Source: Bacteroidia bacterium
Lineage (GTDB): Bacteria > Bacteroidota > Bacteroidia > Flavobacteriales_D > Cryomorphaceae
NCBI GenBank assembly: GCA_030427905.1
Contig: JAUICL010000011.1
Coordinates: 1 to 58,950 of the forward strand
Length of the DNA stretch: 58,950 nucleotides
Reading direction: 5' to 3'
The translations under genes were made by a program, and so were the position numbers. Positions 1 through 21,212 of the stretch are shown in pieces. Under the pieces are notes generated by a model, which ran no database searches, was not told where the DNA came from, and saw nothing but the letters and a program-made list of their open reading frames with translations. Each line of letters starts with the position of its first letter. Position 1 is the first letter of the stretch.

Positions 1-3000
1 CGATCCACCGTAACCAAGCGTTGTAAATACAAGGGCATCTACACGCTCTGGCTCACCAAGTGCGTTGTTTTCATCTGTACGATCGGCAGGTAGAGCAGAA
101 CCGTTAGACTGGGTACCTTCGATGTACTCAACGGCAGCTACAGCGTAGCACTCGCCTTCTGGTACAATCACTGGCTCATCATCGCCACATCCAGCGGCCA
201 TGTCACCATTGTCAAGCATAAGCGCTTCACCATCTACTAGAGCCGTGTAAACAGCTACTTCAGATCCATCAGCAGCACTTACTTCTACGAAAGTAGATGT
301 TCCTGAGTAAGCTAATACAAGACCTGTTGAGTTGTTGGCTTGAGCCATACCGTTGGCACCAGGAATGTCACCTACTAGAATTGCTGACCCACCAGTGATC
401 TCGTAGAGTTCTCCTTGACCACGGTTCGCTACGTAAAGCTTACCATCTTGGATTGCAAGGTCACCACCGTGAAGTGGAGCATCGGCAAAATATGTAGCCT
501 GACCTGTTCCTAGATCAATCGTGTAAATCTCTCCGTCATTCGTATCACCAACGTAAAGTTGACCATCAGCTGGGTTGTATACAGTTGAGTAGATAGAGTT
601 AACACCACCAATAATCGGAAAGTCTCCTAGGAATGTACCTAGTGTTGGATCGTAAGCTCTGATGAAGTTACCGTTAGGGTTTACAAGGTATAGGATGTCA
701 TCTTCAGCATTGTAAGCTATGTGAGTTGTGAAAGGAACATTCGTCAAGAACGAAAGAACCGCATCAGAACCACTGTAAGCTACACTGTAGATATCTGCTC
801 CACCACCTACATGGTGTGAGTAGAACGTAGAGAATGCATCACAGTCGCCTTCGTTCTCATCAGAGAAGGTGTTGCAACCAGAAGCCATATCACCATTGTT
901 GTGGTTGAATGCTTCACCATCAAGGATCAATGGGTAAGAATCACCTGGATTTGAACCATCAAGATCCCGTACGCGAAGGTTGCTATTACCATTGTGAGAA
1001 AGAATGAGCTGATCATCACCTGAAAGTGCCATTCCCGTCACTTGATTTGAGAGAGACCCGATAAGGATATCATCCCACACACCATCGGGGTATACTTCGT
1101 AAAGTCCGTTTCCTTGACGTGTTGCTAAATAAAGCTGTCCTTCTCGATCAAATGCGATGTCACCACCGTTGATTGGTGCATAGGCATCGTAAACCGTTAG
1201 GCTGTTGTCAGAAACATCTACACTGTAGATCTTATCTTGTGTAGCAGACCCAATCAAAAGGTCTCCATCTGGACCGAACACAGCTGTAGTTACTCCAGGA
1301 ACATTTTGAGCAAGGTAGAATACTTCACTCACTTCTACTGGAGAAACGTGTGGGTTCACTTTTACATAAGAAGCGTTTGAGTTGCTTACTACGTAAACCA
1401 AGTTGTCAGCTGGATTGTAGGCGATATGTGCATGGTAGTCGATAGTGGCTAGGTAGGACAACTCAGCGTTTCCACCAACGAGTTCCACACCATAAAGATC
1501 AGTAACACCACCAGCATTGTTGTTCAAATACATTACCCAGTCTTCGCAAGCGTTTGGATCAGTGATTGGCGTACCTTCACATCCACATTCTGCAGTAACA
1601 ACATCATCTTCTGTGCTATCGTCACCATCATCGCAAGCATCTCCTATGTTTGCTTCAAGCTCAGGGCAGTCGAAGATTGAAACACCAACACATCCACAGT
1701 CTGCAGTAACAACATCACCTTCTGTGCTATCGTCACCATCATCACAAGCATCGCCGATGTTTGCTTCAAGTTCAGGACAGTCAAGAGCTGGAACGCAGTT
1801 TAGCGTCAAGTCAAAGTTTCCTGTATTAGAGCTATATCCATGTACTAGAATGTAGTAGGTCACACCATCTTCGTATTCGAAATCTACGATCGGGTCATTT
1901 CCACCGCAATTTGTATAGTCATCATCTTCTCCTACCACGCATTCTAGCGCATCGCATGATCCTGAGAAGATTCGAATTTTAGAGTCGAAGTCTGCATCGC
2001 AAAGACCAGCAGTAGCTATTCCTGCTCCAGAAGCAGTATAAGCATACCAAACTGCACCAGCACTTCCGTTAGAAGTACCACAGTAAGGCTGGTCTTCTGA
2101 GCTAGCACCGATTGTAGTACCAGAAATCACTTCGTCGCATGAGATTGCGATGGCATCGGCACAAACATCGTTTTCCGGAACTGGTGTTCCTTCACAACCA
2201 CAATCTTCGTTTACTACGTCATCGATCGTATTCTCATCACCATCATCACAAGAATCACCAATGTTGAGTCCTAATTCTTCACAGTCTACACCGAAAGAGC
2301 ATTCTGCTAACAATTCAAAGTTTCCTTCTGCATTGCTGTATCCTGCCACGGCGATGTAGTAAGTCACGCCAGCTTCAGCGTCAAACTCGCCGAGAGAAGC
2401 CCACGATTGGAAATCACATGTTCCCGGTCCATCTAGGTAACCAGCTCCACCCCAACCAGAAAAACAAGTTAGGCTTCCACAGTCATCACCTGTAAAGATG
2501 CTGATGTCTGAATCAAAATCTGTGATTGAAGAACAAGTAGTTAGTGAAATCGTTGCAGCTTCATCAAGGGTGAGTGAGTACCACACCGCATTTCTGTCGG
2601 TGAAGTTGCAGAAAGAGTCAGAAGTTGCATCGATGTTCGTTCCAATTACTGGGATACCGCACTCAAGTGCAATTGCATTGTCGCAAGCATCATTTTCTGG
2701 AATAGGCGTACCTGCACATTCGCAGTCTTCGCTTACCACGTCATCGATTGTATTCTCATCACCATCGTCACAAGAATCGCCAATGTTCAATCCGAGTTCT
2801 TCACAATCTACTCCGAAAGCACATTCTACCGACAGTTCGAAGTTTCCTGTAGCATTGCTATATCCAGCGACAGCGATGTAGTACGTCACACCAGCTTCAG
2901 CATCAAACTCACCGAGAGACGCCCACGATTGGAAAGAACAGTTTCCTGGACCATCAATGTATCCATCACCACCCCAACCGGCAAAGCAAGTTAGGCTTCC

Positions 3001-4239
3001 GCAGTCATCACCAGTGAAGATGCTGATATCTGTATCGAAGTCAGTGATCGAAGAACATGTAGTTAGTGAAATCGTTGCTGCTTCCTCAAGGGTAAGTGAG
3101 TACCACACAGCATTTCTGTCAGTGAAGTTGCAAAATGAATCTGAAGTTGCACCAATGTTGGTTCCTTCTACTGAGTCACCACATTCTAGCGCGATAGCGC
3201 TGTCGCATCCGTCATTTTCTGGTACAGGGATACCAATACACTCGCAGTCTTCAGTTACAATATCACCAAGTGTATTTTCATTTCCATCATCACAAGAAGC
3301 GCCAATATTTGCTTCAAGTTCTGGGCAATCGAAGCTAACACCACATGATACAGTCCACTCCCATGTGTCATATCCAGCACCGTCAGCACAGCTGTAAAGA
3401 CCGTCAGAGTCGAGTACAAGAAGAATTGAACTTCCAGAAGAGTTCACATTGATATTTGAAACTTCTCCAAATGATGGGTCTCCTTCAAAAAGGATAGGCG
3501 CTAAGTCATCAGCACCGTCGTATATAGTAATAAAATCCCAACCAGTTTCGATCGTCCCAGCAGTGAAATCTAAATTTAATGTTACACCTGGCTCGGCGTT
3601 GTAGATCCAAAATCTATCAGCATTTCCGTAGCAGAAAGACTGAGCCAAAGGACTTCCGCAGTCTATATCGAAAACAAATTGTTCTCCAACACATTCACAG
3701 TCTTCTGAAAGAATATCATTGATTGTGTTCTCGTTCAAATCATCACAGGCATCTCCTGGATTTGCCAGAAGTTCAGGGCACAAGAACTCTACGCAACTAG
3801 TACATTGAACCGTTGTCACAATACAAACATCATTTGTACCGCAACTTTCATCTGTGTTCCAGTGTGGATAAAGATTCGAACCATCGTTGCTCGTAGCGCT
3901 TACTGGGCTATACCCAGAAGCAATGATGGGACCATCAGAGGCGCCTTCACGAATAGTGATGTATCCACTACTTGAAGAAGTAAATTCATAGGTGTTTCCA
4001 GCAACAACTCCTGCAACGGTAGAGTATTCTTCTTCCCAGTTACAGCTGTTAATCTGAATAAGCGCATCGGTGCCATCCAGTAGTGCGGCACCATAAGAAC
4101 TTGTATTAAGGCATTCCGGATTTTGAGCGTACGCTGAAGAAATCCCGAGTGACAATAACAAGAAACAACAGACTTGCCATTGTTTGTTAAGCTGGCTGAT
4201 TAGATTCAGCCCAAAAGATTGAGTAAGCATCTTCATCAT
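1..4239 (-). CDS. Large modular surface protein, predicted T9SS cargo (C-terminus outside window)
   Basis: The reading frame runs open from an ATG at 4239 to the window edge, giving 1413 visible codons; the C-terminus is missing. In order I see: a signal peptide (residues 1-38, ending AYA); a short beta domain; a CUB-like segment (about 190-300, IYDG motif); three PPC-like beta-sandwiches (about 337-470, 513-643, 690-813); six copies of a roughly 32-residue Cys/Asp spacer of pattern CxxLxxNxGDxCDDGDxxT; then two units of about 220 residues with beta-propeller character (about 900-1120 and 1127-1347), each closing on NGDMAxGC. The visible end begins a domain with the LGEPER motif, which also occurs in the protein at 18261-21212. 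That homologue carries a T9SS sorting tail, so the same is expected here. ATGs at 4236 and 4230 are alternative starts. Role unknown: adhesion or matrix protein is an inference. Confidence 0.85.
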   Translation of the reverse strand, partial: MMKMLTQSFGLNLISQLNKQWQVCCFLLLSLGISSAYAQNPECLNTSSYGAALLDGTDALIQINSCNWEEEYSTVAGVVAGNTYEFTSSSSGYITIREGASDGPIIASGYSPVSATSNDGSNLYPHWNTDESCGTNDVCIVTTVQCTSCVEFLCPELLANPGDACDDLNENTINDILSEDCECVGEQFVFDIDCGSPLAQSFCYGNADRFWIYNAEPGVTLNLDFTAGTIETGWDFITIYDGADDLAPILFEGDPSFGEVSNINVNSSGSSILLVLDSDGLYSCADGAGYDTWEWTVSCGVSFDCPELEANIGASCDDGNENTLGDIVTEDCECIGIPVPENDGCDSAIALECGDSVEGTNIGATSDSFCNFTDRNAVWYSLTLEEAATISLTTCSSITDFDTDISIFTGDDCGSLTCFAGWGGDGYIDGPGNCSFQSWASLGEFDAEAGVTYYIAVAGYSNATGNFELSVECAFGVDCEELGLNIGDSCDDGDENTIDDVVSEDCECAGTPIPENDACDNAIALECGIPVIGTNIDATSDSFCNFTDRNAVWYSLTLDEAATISLTTCSSITDFDSDISIFTGDDCGSLTCFSGWGGAGYLDGPGTCDFQSWASLGEFDAEAGVTYYIAVAGYSNAEGNFELLAECSFGVDCEELGLNIGDSCDDGDENTIDDVVNEDCGCEGTPVPENDVCADAIAISCDEVISGTTIGASSEDQPYCGTSNGSAGAVWYAYTASGAGIATAGLCDADFDSKIRIFSGSCDALECVVGEDDDYTNCGGNDPIVDFEYEDGVTYYILVHGYSSNTGNFDLTLNCVPALDCPELEANIGDACDDGDDSTEGDVVTADCGCVGVSIFDCPELEANIGDACDDGDDSTEDDVVTAECGCEGTPITDPNACEDWVMYLNNNAGGVTDLYGVELVGGNAELSYLATIDYHAHIAYNPADNLVYVVSNSNASYVKVNPHVSPVEVSEVFYLAQNVPGVTTAVFGPDGDLLIGSATQDKIYSVDVSDNSLTVYDAYAPINGGDIAFDREGQLYLATRQGNGLYEVYPDGVWDDILIGSLSNQVTGMALSGDDQLILSHNGNSNLRVRDLDGSNPGDSYPLILDGEAFNHNNGDMASGCNTFSDENEGDCDAFSTFYSHHVGGGADIYSVAYSGSDAVLSFLTNVPFTTHIAYNAEDDILYLVNPNGNFIRAYDPTLGTFLGDFPIIGGVNSIYSTVYNPADGQLYVGDTNDGEIYTIDLGTGQATYFADAPLHGGDLAIQDGKLYVANRGQGELYEITGGSAILVGDIPGANGMAQANNSTGLVLAYSGTSTFVEVSAADGSEVAVYTALVDGEALMLDNGDMAAGCGDDEPVIVPEGECYAVAAVEYIEGTQSNGSALPADRTDENNALGEPERVDALVFTTLGYGGS
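1570..1790 (-). repeat. Two tandem copies of a 111-bp coding repeat
   Basis: The same CTGCAGTAAC string starts at 1590 and 1701, a period of 111 bp (37 codons). The units encode the fifth and sixth Cys/Asp spacers and differ by a few bases. They lie between the PPC-like domains and the propeller units. Confidence 0.8.
2230..3273 (-). repeat. Two tandem copies of a 522-bp coding repeat
   Basis: Landmark strings recur at 2230, 2752 and 3274, an exact 522-bp period (174 codons). Each copy encodes one Cys/Asp spacer plus one PPC-like domain of the surface protein. The copies remain very similar at the DNA level, including silent positions, which suggests recent duplication or gene conversion. 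The period is a whole number of codons, so copy number can change without breaking the frame. Confidence 0.85.
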
Positions 4240-4593
4240 ATAGATTGGTATTAGTTCCATAGTTAAATGCCCTGTAAGCGGGGCGATAAAATGGTCTAAT
4301 TGATGAAGCGCTATAGGTGAGAACAAGTCTCAGAGAGTGGATTTCATAGCTTCACAAAGTTAAGGCGTATTTCGACGAAGTCAAGTAAAATGTCGATGAA
4401 AGTGCTTTTTGCCGCTAGGGGTGAGTGAGCGACTAGGTGTTTAAGTGATTGGTAAACAGTGTTGTGTGGGGGCAACGTGAGAAAGTTCAGAAAGTTTCAT
4501 TTTTTTTCTGATTTCGATCAAAACACAATACTATTCTGTTAAAAAGCAGACTTCAGAAATGGTTGACCATCCAATTTTTGTCAAAAAAATAAA
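4240..4593. other. 354-bp intergenic region with promoter and leader of the surface protein
   Basis: No gene is supported here. On the minus strand it holds a promoter candidate (4355-4384) and a predicted leader of about 110 nt for the surface protein starting at 4239. A small GCCC...GGGC hairpin lies inside that leader near 4272-4287. No convincing terminator for hemB is visible at 4500-4593, only A/T-rich runs. Confidence 0.5.
4355..4384 (-). promoter_or_regulatory. Bacteroidetes-type promoter of the large surface protein
   Basis: On the minus strand TTGAC (4384-4380) is followed by TAACTTTG (4362-4355), with 19 nt between TTG and TAACTTTG. This fits the Bacteroidetes -33 TTG / -7 TAnnTTTG pattern. 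The start codon lies about 115 nt downstream. Confidence 0.6.
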
Positions 4594-5583
4594 TCAGTGC
4601 TGCGTGTAGCCTTCCTGGTAAAGCTTGGCGTAATCTTTTGCAAAATAGGTGAGGATGGTATCAGCTCCTGCTCTTCGAATACTCAGAAGCATTTCAGTCA
4701 TGGCGGCCTTTTCATCGAGCCATCCATTCTGTGCCGCGGCTTTTATCATCGCGTACTCTCCGCTAACGTTGTAGGCAGAAATAGGTAGGTGCGAAAATTC
4801 TTTCAGTCTATTGATAATATCGAGGTAGCAAAGCGCTGGTTTTACCATAAGCATGTCAGCTCCTTCGTCTTCATCTAGTTGGGCTTCTCTATAGGCCTCG
4901 TTGATGTTGGCTGGATCCATCTGATAGGTTTTTTTGTCGCCATCTTTTGGAGCCGAATCGAGGGCATCCCTGAATGGACCGTAGTATGCACTGGCATACT
5001 TAGCGGTGTACGACATGATGGCTACTTCTTCGAAACCTTGCGTATCCAGAGCTTCTCTGATACTGCCCACGCGTCCATCCATCATGTCAGACGGGCCTAT
5101 GATATCTATTCCGGCTTGGGCTTGGGCTACAGACATTTTCTCGAGTATGGGCAAGGTAGGATCGTTGAGAATCTTTCCATCCTTTACCAGGCCATCATGT
5201 CCATCAGAACTATAGGGGTCCATGGCCACATCGCTCATCAAAACTGCTTGGGGAAACTTCTGCTTAATCTCTTGAATGAGTCTTAAGTAAAAATTGTCGT
5301 CGCTATAGCTGTATGACGCAATTTTGTCTTTTAAACTCTCTTCTACAACGGGAAATAGAACGAAAGAATTGATTCCTAGTTTGAGCGATTCTTCGATCTC
5401 TCTGAAGGTTTCTTGAAATCCAAGTTGCGCTTGACCTGGTAGGGATTTGATCGGGTTAGCGTATGAATCGTGATCAGCTACAAAAAGTGGGTAAATAAGT
5501 TGTTGTGGTTGGAGAAAAGTCTCCCTGACCATTTTTCGAATTCCTGCTGATCTCCTGTTTCTTCTCGGTCTGATGTGATTCAT
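4594..5583 (-). CDS. hemB: Delta-aminolevulinic acid dehydratase (porphobilinogen synthase)
   Basis: Condenses two 5-aminolevulinate molecules to porphobilinogen, an early cytoplasmic step of haem synthesis. The 329-residue protein matches family length (E. coli about 324). The Schiff-base lysines are K195 in YTAKYAS and K248 in MVKPAL. The loop DVAMDPYSSDGHDG at 118-131 has A, D and D where zinc-dependent enzymes carry three Cys, so this is a cysteine-free enzyme, probably Mg-dependent. The open frame extends upstream to a TTG at 5607, but that TTG lies inside the TATATTTG promoter box, so the ATG at 5583 is chosen. yidD lies just upstream; hemF elsewhere in the window belongs to the same pathway. 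Confidence 0.97.
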   Translation of the reverse strand: MNHIRPRRNRRSAGIRKMVRETFLQPQQLIYPLFVADHDSYANPIKSLPGQAQLGFQETFREIEESLKLGINSFVLFPVVEESLKDKIASYSYSDDNFYLRLIQEIKQKFPQAVLMSDVAMDPYSSDGHDGLVKDGKILNDPTLPILEKMSVAQAQAGIDIIGPSDMMDGRVGSIREALDTQGFEEVAIMSYTAKYASAYYGPFRDALDSAPKDGDKKTYQMDPANINEAYREAQLDEDEGADMLMVKPALCYLDIINRLKEFSHLPISAYNVSGEYAMIKAAAQNGWLDEKAAMTEMLLSIRRAGADTILTYFAKDYAKLYQEGYTQH

Positions 5584-5604
5584 TTGTTTCTCGAACTTGG
5601 ACAG

Positions 5605-5612
5605 CAAATATA
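5605..5612 (-). promoter_or_regulatory. hemB -7 promoter box
   Basis: TATATTTG on the minus strand, a perfect TAnnTTTG. It ends 21 nt before the hemB ATG, predicting a leader of about 15 nt, and it excludes the longer TTG start at 5607. Confidence 0.6.
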
Positions 5613-9871: not shown

Positions 9872-12800
9872 CTACCAAAACAGTTTGGACGCAAATTGAT
9901 CAGACCCATCAGTAAGCTGGACGATGTAGAGACCACGGCTCAATTGTAAAGGTAGTTGGTGCAAATTTGATTCTACATTAAGCGAAGACTCGAATATGAC
10001 GGCTCCACTCACCGAGCGCACTTGAACCTTGTTTGTGTGAGAGCTAGGTGAACACTCCAAGATCAGGTTTTCCCCATTTCGATATGCCTTGAAATTAGCG
10101 AGAGAAACAGGAGTGTTTATCGCTTTGACATCTGAATAGGAGAAACTTCCATCGAAATCAACTTGCTTGAGCCGGTAGTACGACATTCCCGGAAGGGGAG
10201 AAGTATCCAAGAATCGGTAGTCTGTGCGTGCAGAGCTTTCCCCAGCGCCTTTAACCCGCCCAATCTTTTTAAAATGAAGGTTGGGTCCCGCACGTTCTAC
10301 ATCGAAATGGCTACTGTTGGTTTCCGAACCGGTAGCCCAAGTCAAATTGATATCGCTGCCAAGCCGGTTGGCATTGAAAAACAAGAGCTCTACTGGAAGA
10401 ACGTTCAGAAACGAATTGCTCGTAAAGACAAAGTCACCGAAAGCGACAGGTAGAATACCCGGACTCATTGCTGAAACGGACTCTACATAATTTCCAGATA
10501 CACCTGAAAAGACAATATCCCAGTTGAAACCATTCCACACTGAGAAGTTGATTTGATCTGTGTCGGACACCGCGTTGCAGTATTCTGCCACATTCGAATT
10601 GGAAAAGGCGAGTCCGAGTTTAATTGTACCAGATCCATCTATCGAATCAATTGTCCAATAATCGCAATTCCCGACTTCTTGAAAATCATACGGGTTATTT
10701 GATTCTCCGTCGTAATAGGCTCCTGCATTTGGATGAGCTTCTGCTGTATATTGCGCATCGATTGTGGTTGGGCCTGTGATGTCAAAAATACGCGCTGGTT
10801 GGTAAAATGACGTACCGTCACCATTAGTGTCTCCTATTGGGAACACAAAGTTCTCACCTGCTGATTCCTTCCGAACCTTACCTTCTACAAAACTTGTATT
10901 TGAAGCATAACTCACATCTGCGCTGGGAAGGAAAATGACTTTTTGATCATCGGCCAATTCCAGTATACCCGAAATGGCTACCAGGGAATCGGAAATCTCA
11001 ATATCTTGATCTGTGAAAACCCTACCAGCGGGCTTGTCGAGCGTTAAATTATGGATGGAAAGGGGAGCCGAAGCCGATTGGAGAGTTTGGTCTTCATCAC
11101 CATCTAGACGAATTTTTCCATCTGTCATGGCAACGGTTCCGTCTAGAAACGCATCTCCCGAAATCGTCAAGGTCGAAGAAGGAGTAGTAAAGGAGAGCGT
11201 TGCGCCAACATCTACAATCAAGTCAGCACAAGTAGCTTCACTTTGCGAGATTTCCGGGTCGTTGGTGCTGGGAGGAATGGTCACGTTCGTATTTGGTTCC
11301 GGAAGTCGCAGATTAGACCAATTTCGACAGTCTTCCCATTCATTGGATGTGTCGCCAACCCAAATTCCTTCTGTGAAAACCCCTGCCTGAATGTCGAAAT
11401 TGACGCAAGTAGAAGCGTAATACGGGGGATTGCTATTGAAATCTGAATAGGACGCATAGCTGTCCCAGTTATTGGCATCGTTGAGTCGAGTTATCCACTC
11501 TGTTTTTGATGCCGCAGCAAAAGATCCGTTGTACTTGACAATATCATTGTTCAAGGTTTCTAAATCTGTGTTTAAGCAGGAAGAGTTCGGGAAGAGTGTA
11601 GACCCACTTGTGCTGTTATAGTTTGGAGATTCTTCCCAGCCGATTGCAGTCCAACCGTAGAGTACATTGCCAGTATAGTAGGCATTATGCGAGCCACTGG
11701 GGTTTTCCCATAAACCACCTTGCATAAGCCAAATTTGGTCGGTACTGTTCATATTGAAACTGAAAGCTCCGTTCAAAGATGATATAGACCAATCGGTATC
11801 GAGTACTCCACAAACATAAATATCGAAACCACTTTGGTTATTTCCTTGGCCTTCGATACAGATAGGTGTTCCTGCTGGAATCGTTCCGCCAGTTCGTTCA
11901 ATTCGAATTGTGCCTTCTGTGTCGCTCCAAAGACCAGCACTCACGCGCTCGTACCCATTGTCCGTAAAATCAATGGCCGTATTGGTTGTAATACTTTTAT
12001 ATGACACAAAGCAGATTTGGTCATCACTACCGCCAATATCGGTTACAACAGAAATAATTGACAAATCTCCAGGCTCCAGTGTTGTTGATTCGCGGGGTGT
12101 TTCGCAAACGTCAATTCCATTTGACCATTCACTTCCCTTTCTCACAAAAACCTTAAAACAATACGGTGTATCTGTGGTTAAGCCCGTCACCGTTTCGCTC
12201 GAACCAATGCCCGAATACACCACTTTTTCACCTGGGGCTAAATCCGGGTTTAAGACATCTGTAAAATCGTTGGAGTTGACACTGTAGTTGCTTCCAGAAG
12301 GTGTTCCAATCACGGGTGACTCGCTCGCTACAAGAATTATTTCATCGACACAAGCTGGAGTTACAGCCCATGTGAACGCTATGCTTGTCAAGGCTGGTGT
12401 TGCAGCTAAGTTTTCTACTTCACCTAGCTCTGCAGTAGCCGTAGATTGAGTTCCAGATGAATATTCCCAAAAACTCGGGTTCGAACAACTCGAGCAAGAA
12501 ACATACGCGAATACTTTGAATGTGTAAGATTGGGAAGCGATGAGCCCAGAAACTGTGATACTGGTTGAATTTCCTTCGTAAAGAATCTTGTTTACGCCTA
12601 CACTGGGTGCAAGTCCGAAATTGAGATTGTTGCCAACCGTTGTTGGGTTGGTGGTATTGATAGTCGTAGGAGTGTTGTTTTCACGACCTATGACTACGTA
12701 TCCATCCCAAATACCAGCAGGTGGGGGACTCCACGATAGATCCATGGTAGTTGACGTGGTACAGTCTATCAGAAAGTCCGGGTTTTCAGGTTCCATAAGC

Positions 12801-13741
12801 ACACTATGGCTAAGTGGATTGGTAGTATTGTATAATGTGGATGTAGATGCTCCGCAAAACGAATAGGCTTCAAAAAAGTACTCCGTACCAGGTGTCAGAT
12901 TTGAAATGACTATTTGATCTCCAGTGCCTTCATACACTACAAAACTATTTCCCAGGGCATCTCCGTCGCCAAAGAAAGCATCGGGGATATAATCTACCCC
13001 ATCAACAGGCGATTGATTTGGTGGTGCGTCTTCGCTAGCAATAATAAGCGTTTTAGAATCTGCCGCCGGGTTCCAGTTAAGCTCAAAATCTGTGGTTGAG
13101 ATATTGTCGGGATTGAATGTGGTGGGTTGTGATGCAGGTGCAACAAGGCACGGGTCTGCAAGGACACCTTCCAAAATGAAATCGTCAAAGCCAGCGTAGT
13201 CACTTCCTCCGTCTTGCTTCACACGTAGAATAATTGAAACTTCATTGACGGAGTTGGGTATCGAAACAACTTCTTCAGTCCAGCCGATGGAGATGTTTGC
13301 ACTTCCATCCACTAAAAGAACACTTGATTGGGGAATACCATCAAGGATGACTTGGTATTCAATGTCATCACCATTGTCGTACTCAAAGACTTTGTATGAA
13401 AATTTTAACTCTACATCCTCATAAGAAGACACATCAACCGAGCTGAAGGTGATTGTCTCAAACCCAGATCCACCACAACTTCCATTTAGATCGCGCACAC
13501 CCCACATTTGAGATCCCGTTTGCGGCAATATAGAACTGATCCCAGTGGAGTAGTCCCATATATCGGAGCCGTTCGTACAGGGTGGAGTAGATAAAGAATC
13601 TATTGACCAAGTATCACCTGCATCCTGCTCAAAGCCCTGGTAAGCGATCGTCACTTGCGCTTGAGCTTTTTCGTAAACAAAACAGCTAGAGATGACAATC
13701 ATCAACAAGGCAATTGCTCGCTTATGTCGAAAATGTTTCAC
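9872..13741 (-). CDS. Large secreted multidomain surface protein with T9SS sorting tail
   Basis: 1289 residues with a signal peptide (1-28, ending AQAQ). An N-terminal jelly-roll-like domain (about 30-190) is followed by three fibronectin type III-like segments (about 205-310, 315-435, 440-545), a lamin-tail-like beta domain (about 555-700), a segment with a TLTISGDAFLDGT repeat pattern (about 800-900), and a C-terminal T9SS sorting domain (about 1200-1289) preceded by LPVELLFFNA. This is the layout of a surface-anchored adhesin or matrix protein; no catalytic motif was seen. The start is GTG at 13741, since the only nearby ATG (13743) is out of frame. The gene is divergent from guaA and convergent with bshC. 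Confidence 0.88.
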   Translation of the reverse strand: MKHFRHKRAIALLMIVISSCFVYEKAQAQVTIAYQGFEQDAGDTWSIDSLSTPPCTNGSDIWDYSTGISSILPQTGSQMWGVRDLNGSCGGSGFETITFSSVDVSSYEDVELKFSYKVFEYDNGDDIEYQVILDGIPQSSVLLVDGSANISIGWTEEVVSIPNSVNEVSIILRVKQDGGSDYAGFDDFILEGVLADPCLVAPASQPTTFNPDNISTTDFELNWNPAADSKTLIIASEDAPPNQSPVDGVDYIPDAFFGDGDALGNSFVVYEGTGDQIVISNLTPGTEYFFEAYSFCGASTSTLYNTTNPLSHSVLMEPENPDFLIDCTTSTTMDLSWSPPPAGIWDGYVVIGRENNTPTTINTTNPTTVGNNLNFGLAPSVGVNKILYEGNSTSITVSGLIASQSYTFKVFAYVSCSSCSNPSFWEYSSGTQSTATAELGEVENLAATPALTSIAFTWAVTPACVDEIILVASESPVIGTPSGSNYSVNSNDFTDVLNPDLAPGEKVVYSGIGSSETVTGLTTDTPYCFKVFVRKGSEWSNGIDVCETPRESTTLEPGDLSIISVVTDIGGSDDQICFVSYKSITTNTAIDFTDNGYERVSAGLWSDTEGTIRIERTGGTIPAGTPICIEGQGNNQSGFDIYVCGVLDTDWSISSLNGAFSFNMNSTDQIWLMQGGLWENPSGSHNAYYTGNVLYGWTAIGWEESPNYNSTSGSTLFPNSSCLNTDLETLNNDIVKYNGSFAAASKTEWITRLNDANNWDSYASYSDFNSNPPYYASTCVNFDIQAGVFTEGIWVGDTSNEWEDCRNWSNLRLPEPNTNVTIPPSTNDPEISQSEATCADLIVDVGATLSFTTPSSTLTISGDAFLDGTVAMTDGKIRLDGDEDQTLQSASAPLSIHNLTLDKPAGRVFTDQDIEISDSLVAISGILELADDQKVIFLPSADVSYASNTSFVEGKVRKESAGENFVFPIGDTNGDGTSFYQPARIFDITGPTTIDAQYTAEAHPNAGAYYDGESNNPYDFQEVGNCDYWTIDSIDGSGTIKLGLAFSNSNVAEYCNAVSDTDQINFSVWNGFNWDIVFSGVSGNYVESVSAMSPGILPVAFGDFVFTSNSFLNVLPVELLFFNANRLGSDINLTWATGSETNSSHFDVERAGPNLHFKKIGRVKGAGESSARTDYRFLDTSPLPGMSYYRLKQVDFDGSFSYSDVKAINTPVSLANFKAYRNGENLILECSPSSHTNKVQVRSVSGAVIFESSLNVESNLHQLPLQLSRGLYIVQLTDGSDQFASKLFW

Positions 13742-17289: not shown

Positions 17290-18186
17290 ATGTCCATATC
17301 TAGGAATGATATTAAGGATGCCTACCAGCAAATCCAAAACCACATTTGTACTCAAATAGAGCGAGCTGATGGCAAGGGACGTTTTGTAAGTGACCATTGG
17401 ACTAGAGAAGGCGGTGGTGGTGGTCATACCCGTATTTTAAGTCATGGAGCTGTGCTTGAGAAGGCAGGGGTAAACTTTTCGGCGGTTGAGGGTAAACTGG
17501 ATGAGCGTTTAAAGAAGCACTTGAAGACTGATGCAGATGCATTTTTCGCAACTGGTGTCAGCATTGTGATGCATCCATCAAATCCGCATGTGCCTATCAT
17601 TCATATGAATATTAGGTATTTTGAGTTGGATAATGGAATCTATTGGTTTGGCGGTGGAATCGATCTAACGCCGCATTACGTTGTAGAAGATGATGCAAAG
17701 TTCTTTCACAGCTCCTTGAAGACTGTTTGTGACAAGTATGATGGTAGCTTCTACCCGAAGTTTAAGACTTGGGCAGACGATTATTTCTTCATCCCACACC
17801 GCAATGAAACCCGTGGAATTGGTGGGATCTTTTACGATCAACTCAAGGAACATGAAGGCCTTTCCAAGGAAGAAATATTCTCGTTCAGTAAAGACTTGGG
17901 TATGTTGTTTCCAACTGTTTATTCTGAATTGATTGAAAGAAATCGGAACCGGTCATTTTCGGAGAGCGAAAAGGAGTGGCAGTACGTGCGCAGGGGGCGT
18001 TATGTAGAGTTTAACTTGGTATACGATCGTGGTACTAAATTTGGGCTGGAGAGCAACGGTAGAACGGAGTCGATTCTCATGAGCCTGCCAGAGCAAGCAA
18101 AGTGGTTTTACAATTATCAAGTCAACAAAGATTCCAACGAACAGCATACGCTAGACCTACTTAAGAAAGGAATCAACTGGATATAA
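17290..18186 (+). CDS. hemF: Oxygen-dependent coproporphyrinogen III oxidase
   Basis: Oxidatively decarboxylates coproporphyrinogen III to protoporphyrinogen IX using O2, a late step of haem synthesis. The 298-residue length is typical. Family motifs are GGGGHTRILSHG near the N-terminus, NPHVPIIHMNIRYFE (about 98-112), WFGGGIDLTPHYV (about 119-131), and RRGRYVEFNLVYDRGT with FGLESNGRTESILMSLP near the C-terminus. Last gene of the guaA unit, 5 nt behind the LysM gene, and followed by a strong terminator. Its presence indicates aerobic haem synthesis, together with hemB in this window. Confidence 0.97.
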   Translation: MSISRNDIKDAYQQIQNHICTQIERADGKGRFVSDHWTREGGGGGHTRILSHGAVLEKAGVNFSAVEGKLDERLKKHLKTDADAFFATGVSIVMHPSNPHVPIIHMNIRYFELDNGIYWFGGGIDLTPHYVVEDDAKFFHSSLKTVCDKYDGSFYPKFKTWADDYFFIPHRNETRGIGGIFYDQLKEHEGLSKEEIFSFSKDLGMLFPTVYSELIERNRNRSFSESEKEWQYVRRGRYVEFNLVYDRGTKFGLESNGRTESILMSLPEQAKWFYNYQVNKDSNEQHTLDLLKKGINWI

Positions 18187-18260: not shown

Positions 18261-21212
18261 TTAATGAGCAATCATTAATTTCTCAATTTTCGTTGTGTTG
18301 TTTGTTGTAACCTTTGTTACGTAAACACCATTTGGAAGAGCTAATCCGTTGAAGTCGAATCTATACGTATTACCAGCTTCTGTTACGGTATTAAACAAGG
18401 TCTCAACAACGCGTCCGTTCATATCGAGTACTTCGATAAGAGCAAGGTCATTTGTTGAAGAAGTAAATTCAATCACCACGGGACCATTTGAAGGGTTCGG
18501 GTATGCAGTCAATTGAATTGTGTGATCTTCCGCTTCTTCTACAGTGTTGTCATCTTGTACTACTGGCTCTTCACCTTCTTCAAGTTCATCTACACAGTTG
18601 TGAAGGGCTACTACACCATCTACGTCGAATCCATCAGGAGAGTCAGAAGGATCAGCGCTAACTATTTTTACCTGGGTGATGTAGTCAAAATCACCAGCAT
18701 CACTGATATCAACGAATCCATCGAATCGGCAAATGTTTTCTACGAAGAAGAAGTTGATTCCATCTTGCGAAACGTATACATCGGCATACTCTGGGTAAGA
18801 TTCACATCCGTTTACACCAAATGTCGTTTCAACGATTTCGATATCGTCACCTTCTTCGTTTGGAACTGCACCGTCAAAGCCAAGTGTGATAAAGGCCATT
18901 CCATCTTCAGAGTATCCGAGTGAAGCGAAGTTGATTTCGTCATTTCTTTCAGGCTCTCCAAGTGCTTGGCTTCCATCTGTTCTATTGGCAGGTATTGGAC
19001 TTCCATTCATTTGAGTTCCAGGAGCGTATTCGATTACTTCCGTTGCATAGCATTCTCCAGGTACGATATCTGGCTCATCTGAAATGCATGCAGCAGCAAG
19101 GTCACCTGCGCTCATGGTGAGATCCATAGCAAAAGACGCTCCAATACCGCCTTCAGCTTCAGTATCAACAATGCTAATTGAATTCGTGTTGGCTGTTCCA
19201 ACTATGATAGAACCATCGCCCAATACAGCTGAACCGTAAATTCCATTGAAGTCTACATCAAACTGTGTGACGCCATCGGTAATGTTATAAAATCTGCTTT
19301 GACCGCGGTGTACAACCCAAAGGTCTCCATCTTCAGTTTGAATGATATCACCACCAGATACAGGGTTGTTAACAGGATTACTTGCTACACCTGTAAGTGG
19401 ATCTACTTGGTAAACCTTGTTCGCAGAAGAAGATCCTATGTAAAGCGTTCCATCTTCAGCTACTACTGCAGAGTGCGTATTGGTAATGTTTTGACCACCA
19501 ATAGTCAGTGGGAGATAGGCTCCCAAAACATCTGTTAGAGGGTCATAAGTGGCAACAGCTCCAGTACGTGCGATAAGGTAGACCGTACCATCTTGTCCAA
19601 GAGCTACATGTGATTTTGGCAAACCATCCCTAACAAGTGATAAACTTGCCGTCATTGTACCTTCATCCAAAACTACTTCGTAAAGTTCACAAGGCCCATT
19701 GGTATTATCAGTCAAGTAAATTTTGAAATTTTCGCAATCTCCATCAACACTGCTGTCACCATCGAAGCAACGGCTGGCGAGATCACCATTGTGGAGTTGA
19801 AGACCTGTATTGAAGGTCTCTCCAGTAGCAGTACCTGTATAGGGTTCATACACTTTGAAAAGTGATCCGAGATTACCATCTGAGATCAACAAATTTCCGC
19901 TAGGGAGAACTGCTACACCATTAATTTCAGTAGCATCTACAGAAAATTCACCAGGACCATTTACTTCATAGAATGTATCGTGTGCGCGGTTTGCAACCCA
20001 CAATACATCATCGATAAAGACAAGGTCACCGCCACTCACATCTCCTGTTCCGTAAAGTGTAGCATCACCGGTCAATGGATCTACAGAGTAGATTTTATCT
20101 CCTTGACCAGTTCCAACATACACGATGTTATTGTCATCAACTACTACCGCTGGTATTTGTGTTATGTTTCCAGCGTCAGAAGCGATTTGAACTGAGTTGA
20201 TAGGGCCTAGGTTTGGGTCCCAAGTGGTAAGGGTACCTGAACTGTGATGAACAATATAGAGCAGCCCGTCAGCTCCAACACCTAGGTGCGAACCTGCAGC
20301 TAGTTCACCTAGTTCAGTTAAGTCAGCTCCTCCAAGGTCATTTAAAGCAACGCTATATAGAATGTCTGGACCACCACCAAGCGCATCATGGATGTAATAA
20401 GTTCGAAGATCGCTACACCCATCTACACTTGAACTACGCTCAGAGCATCCAGCAGCCATATCACCATTATCTAAGGTAAAGGCTTCGCCATCGAGCATAG
20501 CAGCATACGATGCAACTTCTGAAACACCACCTCCATCGACGCTGTATTCTATAAAGCTTCCATTATTTCTTGAAGAAACGATCACGTTTTCTTGGCCTTC
20601 CATAGTAGCCATACCGGTTACATCTCCTTCTACAGTTCCCATTAATATGTTTGCCATACCTCCAAGAACTGTGTAGAGATTACCATTTGGCTTAGCGGCT
20701 AAGTATAGCCCATTGTTGGTCATCGTTAAGTCTCCGCCCTCAATGTCAGCTCCAGAATCATACGGAGACAATCCATAAGGGTCTGTGCTTAGATCGGCAA
20801 TGTAAATATTGCCATTACTCGAACCGATAATTAGACTACCATCATAGTCAACTGCAGCAGTAGTTACTCCACTAATTCCAGACTCTGGTGCAATTGTCGA
20901 CCCCAAAATGCCTGTGAGCGGGTCGAGAGTTTGAACATGTCCATTAGCATCATTGACTAAAAGTAGTAGGCCAGACTCTTCATCAAAAGCGATGTGAGCA
21001 CCATAAGTCAAGTCTAAAGCTACTGGGGTCAAATCGGCCTGGCCATCAGAAAGTGCCACACTATATATGTCTGACTGCTTTACTCCACCAGGATAATTTA
21101 TGTCTGAGTAATAATAGCTGTAGGAGCTGCAAACCCCTTGTGCCATCAGCCCAACTCCCGTAAAAGAAGCTAGGGTAAGCAATAAACTTTTCTTTAAGTC
21201 AAATTTCTTCAT
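18261..21212 (-). CDS. Surface beta-propeller-repeat protein with T9SS sorting tail
   Basis: 983 residues. A signal peptide (1-25, ending LMAQ) is followed by three units of about 220-230 residues (about 28-256, 266-485, 493-710). Each starts with C...YY/IY...LY/IYSVAL and ends in a GDMAxGC-like motif; repeated SVDPLTG-type strands suggest NHL/YncE-like propeller blades. Next comes a domain starting ECYATEV with the LGEPER motif (about 720-890), then a T9SS sorting domain (about 895-983, TAYPNPSNGPVVIEF). The repeat units and LGEPER domain are shared with the larger protein at the left edge, so the two are paralogues. Predicted cell-surface or secreted; function unknown. Confidence 0.88.
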   Translation of the reverse strand: MKKFDLKKSLLLTLASFTGVGLMAQGVCSSYSYYYSDINYPGGVKQSDIYSVALSDGQADLTPVALDLTYGAHIAFDEESGLLLLVNDANGHVQTLDPLTGILGSTIAPESGISGVTTAAVDYDGSLIIGSSNGNIYIADLSTDPYGLSPYDSGADIEGGDLTMTNNGLYLAAKPNGNLYTVLGGMANILMGTVEGDVTGMATMEGQENVIVSSRNNGSFIEYSVDGGGVSEVASYAAMLDGEAFTLDNGDMAAGCSERSSSVDGCSDLRTYYIHDALGGGPDILYSVALNDLGGADLTELGELAAGSHLGVGADGLLYIVHHSSGTLTTWDPNLGPINSVQIASDAGNITQIPAVVVDDNNIVYVGTGQGDKIYSVDPLTGDATLYGTGDVSGGDLVFIDDVLWVANRAHDTFYEVNGPGEFSVDATEINGVAVLPSGNLLISDGNLGSLFKVYEPYTGTATGETFNTGLQLHNGDLASRCFDGDSSVDGDCENFKIYLTDNTNGPCELYEVVLDEGTMTASLSLVRDGLPKSHVALGQDGTVYLIARTGAVATYDPLTDVLGAYLPLTIGGQNITNTHSAVVAEDGTLYIGSSSANKVYQVDPLTGVASNPVNNPVSGGDIIQTEDGDLWVVHRGQSRFYNITDGVTQFDVDFNGIYGSAVLGDGSIIVGTANTNSISIVDTEAEGGIGASFAMDLTMSAGDLAAACISDEPDIVPGECYATEVIEYAPGTQMNGSPIPANRTDGSQALGEPERNDEINFASLGYSEDGMAFITLGFDGAVPNEEGDDIEIVETTFGVNGCESYPEYADVYVSQDGINFFFVENICRFDGFVDISDAGDFDYITQVKIVSADPSDSPDGFDVDGVVALHNCVDELEEGEEPVVQDDNTVEEAEDHTIQLTAYPNPSNGPVVIEFTSSTNDLALIEVLDMNGRVVETLFNTVTEAGNTYRFDFNGLALPNGVYVTKVTTNNTTKIEKLMIAH

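Follow-up and report, generated by a model that had tools for sequence, protein, structure and literature searches.

What is the long repetitive module that two large proteins share on one contig of a Cryomorphaceae genome, and what might it do? The question is raised by the window, the whole 58,950-nucleotide stretch analyzed here (contig JAUICL010000011.1 of the Bacteroidia bacterium assembly GCA_030427905.1), which is the entire contig C12 of a 3.8 Mb source genome in 13 contigs (C1 to C13). Two minus-strand proteins about 14 kb apart, W1 at the left edge (1-4239) and W2 (18261-21212), carry the same unit of about 220 residues, ending in GDMAxGC or similar, twice in W1 and three times in W2. 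Both continue from the units into ALGEPER and the domain named after it (LG), of which W1 carries only the first 52 residues. The shared units and their continuation into LGEPER had been read from the letters alone in the original prediction, and both were confirmed by profile searches. We consider it slightly better than an even bet that the shared tail is a C-terminal surface-display and ligand-binding cassette joined to different heads. The features of the two proteins are as follows.

1-4239, minus strand: W1, surface-type protein, incomplete (the window is the whole of contig C12)
4123-4239, minus strand: W1 signal peptide ending in AQ, from the translation by eye
3781-4119, minus strand: W1 N-terminal segment, no match in the family searches
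3328-3672, minus strand: W1 CUB-like segment (label given by eye), no family match
1780-3219, minus strand: W1, three PPC-like repeats (2806-3219, 2284-2697 and 1780-2175) with Cys/Asp spacers between them, kin of protein C13d
874-1548, minus strand: W1 unit 1, propeller type, first-position class (unit profile, unit tree, DUF6923)
187-843, minus strand: W1 unit 2, propeller type, grouping with middle units of C10 and C13c (unit profile, tree)
1-156, minus strand: W1 LGEPER domain, first 52 residues only (LG profile, 1-153, E 7.4e-14)
18261-21212, minus strand: W2, second family protein, complete open reading frame (ORF) of 983 amino acids
21138-21212, minus strand: W2 signal peptide ending in AQ, from the translation by eye
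20445-21131, minus strand: W2 unit 1, predicted five-bladed propeller with terminal Cys pair (profile and model)
19767-20417, minus strand: W2 unit 2, predicted five-bladed propeller with terminal Cys pair (profile and model)
19086-19736, minus strand: W2 unit 3, predicted five-bladed propeller with terminal Cys pair; DUF5074 barely above cut-off (profile and model)
18594-19058, minus strand: W2 LGEPER domain, predicted discoidin/BtuH-like beta-sandwich (profile and model)
18270-18503, minus strand: W2 type IX secretion system (T9SS) type A sorting domain (TIGR04183, E 8.3e-12; PF18962, E 3.5e-12)

The W1 reading frame (1-4326, minus strand, ATG at 4239) runs past the contig end, and its C-terminus is therefore missing. 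All five units of the window are found with the iterated unit profile at independent E-values of 1.5e-60 to 2.2e-78, a circular result since the profile was trained on them. When W2 served as the query, which is not circular, the W1 units were recovered at E 5.9e-31 and 3.2e-28 with 39% identity, so the two proteins align beyond low complexity. No further unit was found on the window contig in a unit-profile scan of the source genome, and the LG profile had no match in other window ORFs of at least 150 residues. The sorting domain of W2 scores 44.9 bits against a TIGR04183 cut-off of 23, and GldM is present in the source genome; together these point to export of the family proteins through T9SS, in line with the surface location proposed earlier.

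Across the source genome, 24 complete units in 10 genes were found with the unit profile, with a mean pairwise identity of 30%. All of them start and finish with Cys; in the window the units end in GDMAxGC or near variants (GDLASRC, GDLAAAC). When 30 units from other genomes are included, both terminal Cys residues are present in 51 of 54 units and neither in three; no unit has a single one. The original prediction recognized no named family for the unit. W1 does reach DUF6923 (PF21959) in Pfam with 44.3 bits against a gathering cut-off of 27, and 13 of the 24 units match it at E up to 0.01, but this family is itself without known function, and a limited literature search found no paper naming it. 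In W2, DUF6923 was not listed at E up to 1 in the Pfam scan.

The AlphaFold model of W2 (960 residues, 22 alignment rows) has a mean predicted local distance difference test score (pLDDT) of 84.5 and a predicted template modeling score (pTM) of 0.41. Each unit is built of 20 strands in the pattern 3+4+4+4+4+1, with one strand fragmented in unit 3. Counted in this way, every unit is predicted to form its own five-bladed propeller, closed 3+1 by the last strand on the first three, as the suggestion of closed propellers had anticipated. Because the two terminal Cys residues sit at the ends of the closing strands, a first-to-last disulfide clasping each unit is likely. Solved propellers align inside the boundaries of single units with Z 13.4-15.1 among the matches listed, while some rows span at least two units. 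Many of these matches are what we take to be six-bladed designs, kelch and NHL proteins; since middling Z values are common for repeats, the alignments are used only as support for a closed propeller. Full-length W2 retrieved mainly multi-propeller proteins with Foldseek (query TM-scores 0.13-0.19), which is uninformative beyond the word propeller.

Besides the two genes of the window, unit genes lie on C1, C2 (two), C3, C10 and C13 (three). The parts that precede the units differ widely. C2b starts with a choice-of-anchor I domain and a 5'-nucleotidase C-terminal domain, C3 with a VWA domain with DUF11, and C13c with a choice-of-anchor L domain; C2a, cut by a contig end, has Cys-rich repeats, and the head of W1 consists of repeats without a family match. 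In C13a the units begin after a short Cys/Asp spacer (by eye). The W1 repeats had been described as PPC domains. They match nothing in Pfam at E up to 0.1 and nothing in NCBIfam, and the label survives only through kinship: parts of C13d, which itself matches PF04151, resemble repeats 1 and 2 at 51-52% identity and repeat 3 at 37-39%, and repeats 1 and 2 share 88% identity. The C3 paralogue (L026:5325-10130) contains about five near-identical Asp/Cys repeats of the CNGDCEADADEDGICDDEDDCIGELDALGV type upstream of its units.

The order of the units was examined with a tree of 50 units, two of which have long branches. One clade (support 96/87) contains 17 units, 16 of them the first unit of the visible protein and the 17th opening an ORF that is truncated on its 5' side. 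Nine of the ten first units of the source genome fall in this clade, the exception being that of C2a, which groups with middle units. A second clade (100/99) holds seven last units. The last units of W1, C3 and C2b group with middle units of C10 and C13c and with the first unit of C2a, as if in W1, C3, C2b and C2a the last or first unit type had been lost. Units 2 and 3 of W2 group with those of one other genome (L034). Since units largely cluster by position, the cassette was for the most part copied with its order intact while some units came or went, and free shuffling of units is rejected. The module shuffling that had been proposed thus stands for the different N-terminal modules on one core and less so for the units within that core.

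Traces of duplication are also visible at the level of DNA. Homology between the W1 gene and the C3 paralogue, at 77% identity, sets in 15 residues inside unit 1 and continues as far as the contig end; nothing upstream of that start matches. Over 516 codons the pair has a nonsynonymous divergence (dN) of 0.13 and a synonymous divergence (dS) of 1.30, which shows purifying selection on this one pair of copies. Tails matching the C-terminus of W2 stand at the right ends of C9 and C10 and at both ends of C11, and hence the assembly breaks inside this family. A comparison of three of them gave 93-98% identity among the C9 tail, the C10 tail and the C3 gene, and 74-78% for the left tail of C11. The near-identity of the C9, C10 and C3 sequences suggests an assembly gap together with recent duplication or gene conversion. 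Contig ends inside family copies were noted at window position 1, at the right of L027, at the left of L030 and at the right of L031.

The expansion is confined almost entirely to one lineage, as the original prediction had supposed. With the unit profile at 1e-8, matches occur in eight of the 60 nearest genomes, source genome included, and seven of the eight belong to its own GTDB family. Against 24 in the source genome, six of the seven other genomes of that family have 4, 4, 19, 20, 16 and 5 unit matches and one has none; the eighth genome contributes one weak match outside the family. Among 399 genomes of the order, at 1e-10, eight match again, namely the same seven and one partial match in another family. 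Units were also found in single loci of Subsaximicrobium, Winogradskyella aurantiaca and some Bacteroidota metagenome-assembled genomes (MAGs).

LG is distributed otherwise. From a scan of genome contigs 80 of 96 relatives were kept, representing 75 loci largely in Flavobacteriales, Chitinophaga and Cytophagales records. Cryomorpha ignava and MAGs of Cryomorphaceae are among the best matches on named genome contigs, an indication that the window probably comes from this family. The domain is thus not restricted to this lineage, nor is it as unrecognizable as it had first seemed. Loci L067, L071, L086, L099 and L101 carry LG on single contigs labeled Acidobacteriota, Patescibacteria-type or Woesearchaeota, which may reflect transfer or binning error.

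A model of LG from 118 rows (mean pLDDT 92.4, pTM 0.89) is predicted to be a discoidin-like or BtuH-like beta-sandwich. With Foldseek a CBM32 domain leads (E 2.3e-4), followed by many other CBM32 domains and also by PAPP-A and muskelin. LG would on this basis be a carbohydrate-binding module, and the proteins would attach to algal or exopolysaccharide glycans as adhesins or as anchors for enzymes, an alternative that we regard as possible but rather unlikely. It gains from F5_F8_type_C (PF00754), which 27 of the 118 LG rows match at E up to 1 (best 2.2e-4), and from the 5'-nucleotidase domain in one head. On the other hand, the LG domain of W2 itself matches no Pfam family, and the proposal overlaps the display cassette, for which it merely names the ligand.

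A finer structural aligner placed two proteins of vitamin B12 uptake first, BtuH2 (7biz; Z 12.1, 2.7 Å, 136 residues, 23% identity) and BtuG1 (8blw; Z 11.9, 3.0 Å, 141 residues, 24% identity). PAPP-A comes next with Z 11.8, and Z by itself therefore cannot set these two apart from the discoidin-like rows, although the other 48 of the 50 matches listed are only 6-15% identical to LG. The best PDB match of the LG profile is likewise 8blw_B (E 0.023), in the same region as the structural match; with a profile of eight rows only it ranked second at E 0.6. The B12-uptake domain of BtuH2 is described, in the text available of PMC8941943, as lacking known structural homologs, and a limited literature search found nothing linking BtuH with discoidin. 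A domain of many Bacteroidota that had no name thereby receives a predicted structural identity, tied to a B12-uptake domain.

Several positions of LG are strongly conserved. Cys91 and Cys116 are both present in 101 of the 118 rows and both absent in 15, with a single one in two (Fisher 4e-17, a value inflated by the kinship of the rows). The acidic residues E83, E96, D151 and D153 are found in 118 of 118 rows and D78 in 116. NF033170, the LIC_13355 family of lipoproteins, which is reported to bind laminin and plasminogen (PMC11891782, available in part), matches 15 of the 118 LG rows at E up to 0.01. DUF4465 (PF14717) was found neither in the source genome at E up to 0.001 nor among the 19 Pfam families of the LG rows; no DUF4465 structure is among the structural matches listed for LG, which excludes nothing about a jelly-roll fold. 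In a search of viral structures, the three matches under 0.001 were one giant-virus protein and two unnamed proteins.

The closest outside relatives of LG lie mostly in B12 loci. The LG profile matches in 49 of 395 genomes of the phylum, that is the source genome and 48 others with one match each (E 2.1e-15 to 2.2e-7; at most nine candidates were scored per genome). Twenty of the 48 loci, hand-picked and mostly better-scoring, were examined, some on stretches that end early at contig ends. Sixteen encode proteins with the motif FENAF or near it, here called FENAF proteins, and four are more distant (L119:6584-7528, L126:6168-7475, L135:6188-7936 and L137:6364-7029), three of them with what looks by eye like a fused OmpA-like C-terminus. 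A BtuG-like gene accompanies 13 of the 16 FENAF loci, a BtuB-like gene nine and a cobalamin riboswitch six; 14 have either a BtuG-like gene or the riboswitch. The BtuG and BtuB profiles were seeded from five and four of the counted loci, which leaves eight and five as independent, and 15 of the 16 loci rated strong are themselves part of the FENAF profile.

When profiles were aligned with hhalign, LG and FENAF matched over 146 columns (probability 99.7, E 4e-26, 32% identity), and both matched BtuH in its N-terminal part only (LG 93.3, E 2.7e-7; FENAF 95.7, E 9.4e-9). These alignments establish that LG and the FENAF proteins of B12 loci are kin. The whole LG domain aligns, and the columns matching D78, E83, E96, D151 and D153 are invariant or nearly so in FENAF as well; because these acids are kept in both, a shared metal site is suggested, and BtuH2 is reported to hold calcium (PMC8941943, text available in part). 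NF033170 matches 14 of 15 FENAF rows at E up to 0.01, the first of them with 45.2 bits against a cut-off of 120. FENAF proteins differ from those of the source genome in being one per genome, mostly beside BtuG-like genes, and in having N where LG has T or S. Judged by sequence and gene neighborhood, the FENAF proteins of L118, L120-L125, L127-L134 and L136 are likely to be uncharacterized extracellular corrinoid-binding proteins, relatives of BtuH, to which the present family has led us.

Could the cassette then be a repurposed corrinoid-capture device, secreted through T9SS and still binding B12 or another tetrapyrrole? We consider this improbable, albeit the two top structural matches, the 8blw profile match, the strong LG/FENAF alignment and the setting of the FENAF loci all speak for it, as does L083 (L083:5428-6546), the sole LG locus that has a BtuG-like neighbor (E 5.6e-67) and a possible intermediate of both settings. 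B12 contacts in BtuH2 are given in the available text of PMC8941943 as Gln333, Asn399, His476, Tyr510, Trp511 and Trp577; Leu578 and Phe401 lie close to the lower ligand. The position of Asn399, which contacts the phosphate, is N in nine of nine BtuH rows and 15 of 15 FENAF rows, but in none of the 118 LG rows (T in 110, S in 8). The aromatic character at Phe401 is kept in LG (F in 81 and Y in 31 of 118), and 24 rows have a Gln somewhere near the place of Gln333, the ribose contact. Counted from the Asn to the final shared motif, the distance is 174-222 residues in the nine BtuH rows and 66-83 in the LG rows, so that by length only LG hardly has space for the part carrying His476, Tyr510 and Trp511. 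Measured with simple motif anchors, the same stretch is about 83-124 residues in FENAF rows; as FENAF is also short there, the missing stretch alone does not exclude B12 binding by LG, which weakens that argument.

The gene context of LG also differs from that of an uptake system. No cobalamin riboswitch was found in the 26 of 75 LG loci scanned, in the window, or in L025, L026 and L028. The single one of the source genome precedes a TonB receptor (TIGR01779, E 1.8e-21, below the cut-off) and a DUF5074 protein, with no LG gene, and no linkage of family genes to btuB or to a corrinoid riboswitch was seen in the window or the source genome. On the other side, one LG locus, L096, has a partial TonB-receptor match. 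In a limited literature search nothing was found on DUF5074 with cobalamin, or on a flavobacterial cobalamin riboswitch with a TonB-dependent or surface protein. With the Asn lost, the loop stretch short and riboswitches absent from the LG loci scanned, B12 binding was set aside as the main function, and LG is probably a relative of a B12-binding domain in which B12 binding was lost.

The propeller units give a similar picture. DUF5074 covers the region of W2 unit 3 with 27.6 bits against a cut-off of 27.2 and matches one of the 24 units at E up to 0.01, whereas BtuG-like neighbors score 54.6, 68.8, 83.9 and 23.5 bits. Units and BtuG-like proteins align by hhalign at E 1.5e-9 with 15% identity, which is not proof of kinship since propellers resemble one another. 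BtuG2 has seven blades according to the available text of PMC10404256 and PMC6143338, against five predicted per unit, and in place of the surface lipoprotein signal of BtuG, W2 has the AQ-type signal peptide (by eye) and a T9SS tail. As far as PMC10404256 is available, BtuG1 (8BLW) shares with the family the succession of a surface propeller and a sandwich domain similar to LG, weakly so in sequence. It differs in having one propeller and a BtuB partner in a B12 locus; here two or three five-bladed units with a T9SS tail stand outside any B12 locus, and the Asn is lost. The B12-binding domain of BtuH2 (7BIZ; PMC8941943, in part) resembles LG in predicted fold, but LG lacks the B12-contacting Asn and, by length, most of the contact-loop stretch. 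The DUF4465 (BtuJ) jelly-rolls (available text of PMC13398666) are likewise extracellular sandwich domains of Bacteroidota and others, and BtuJ proteins bind B12, but the present family has no Pfam match to DUF4465.

In the display cassette that we favor, two or three disulfide-clasped five-bladed propellers would be followed by one LG sandwich and a type IX secretion tail. The proteins would leave the cell via Sec and T9SS and then either stay attached to the outer face or be set free. The propellers would serve as stalk and docking discs, the acid-rich LG, probably binding Ca2+, as the module that binds a ligand, whether glycan, matrix or small molecule, and any variable N-terminal part as the working head; this division of labor and the ligand binding are read from fold and conservation. 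The family would have grown within one bacterial family by duplication of the cassette, its units mostly in order, and by joining it to new heads. Such a family is new, built from known kinds of parts, and is an example of how one lineage may build a surface repertoire from one mostly ordered tail and many heads.

Several observations weigh against the cassette. W2, C10, C13b and C1 have no head, their units beginning shortly after the signal peptide (by eye). The C1 paralogue (L029:6020-10627) continues from two units into kelch motifs and a T9SS tail without LG, while in many proteins elsewhere LG is present in two or three copies and units are absent; neither module therefore needs the other. 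The sorting tail of W1 is not seen, as the contig ends before it, and with its pTM of 0.41 the full-length model of W2 does not fix the domain arrangement. Kinship of the rows inflates the Cys pair statistics of units and LG alike, and Cys9 and Cys161 of LG have no usable covariation. A self-associating scaffold, in which units and LG bind each other to form a layer or matrix on the surface and no external ligand is involved, would suit the many paralogues with similar tails, the tandem propellers and the three-LG proteins elsewhere, but the mixed heads suggest display of single proteins and we hold it very doubtful. A long shot of similar rank is that a branch of the B12 toolkit left the uptake loci, lost the cobalamin contact and became a duplicated T9SS-secreted surface tail that still binds a small cofactor-like ligand (another corrinoid, a tetrapyrrole or a metal chelate) for scavenging or signaling.

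Two further genes of the window, 4594-5607 and 17290-18186, resemble hemB and hemF (by eye) and adjoin the two family genes, an observation of adjacency only. Between them, at 9872-13741, the window encodes a T9SS-type protein with Fn3 domains, which falls outside the unit/LG family.

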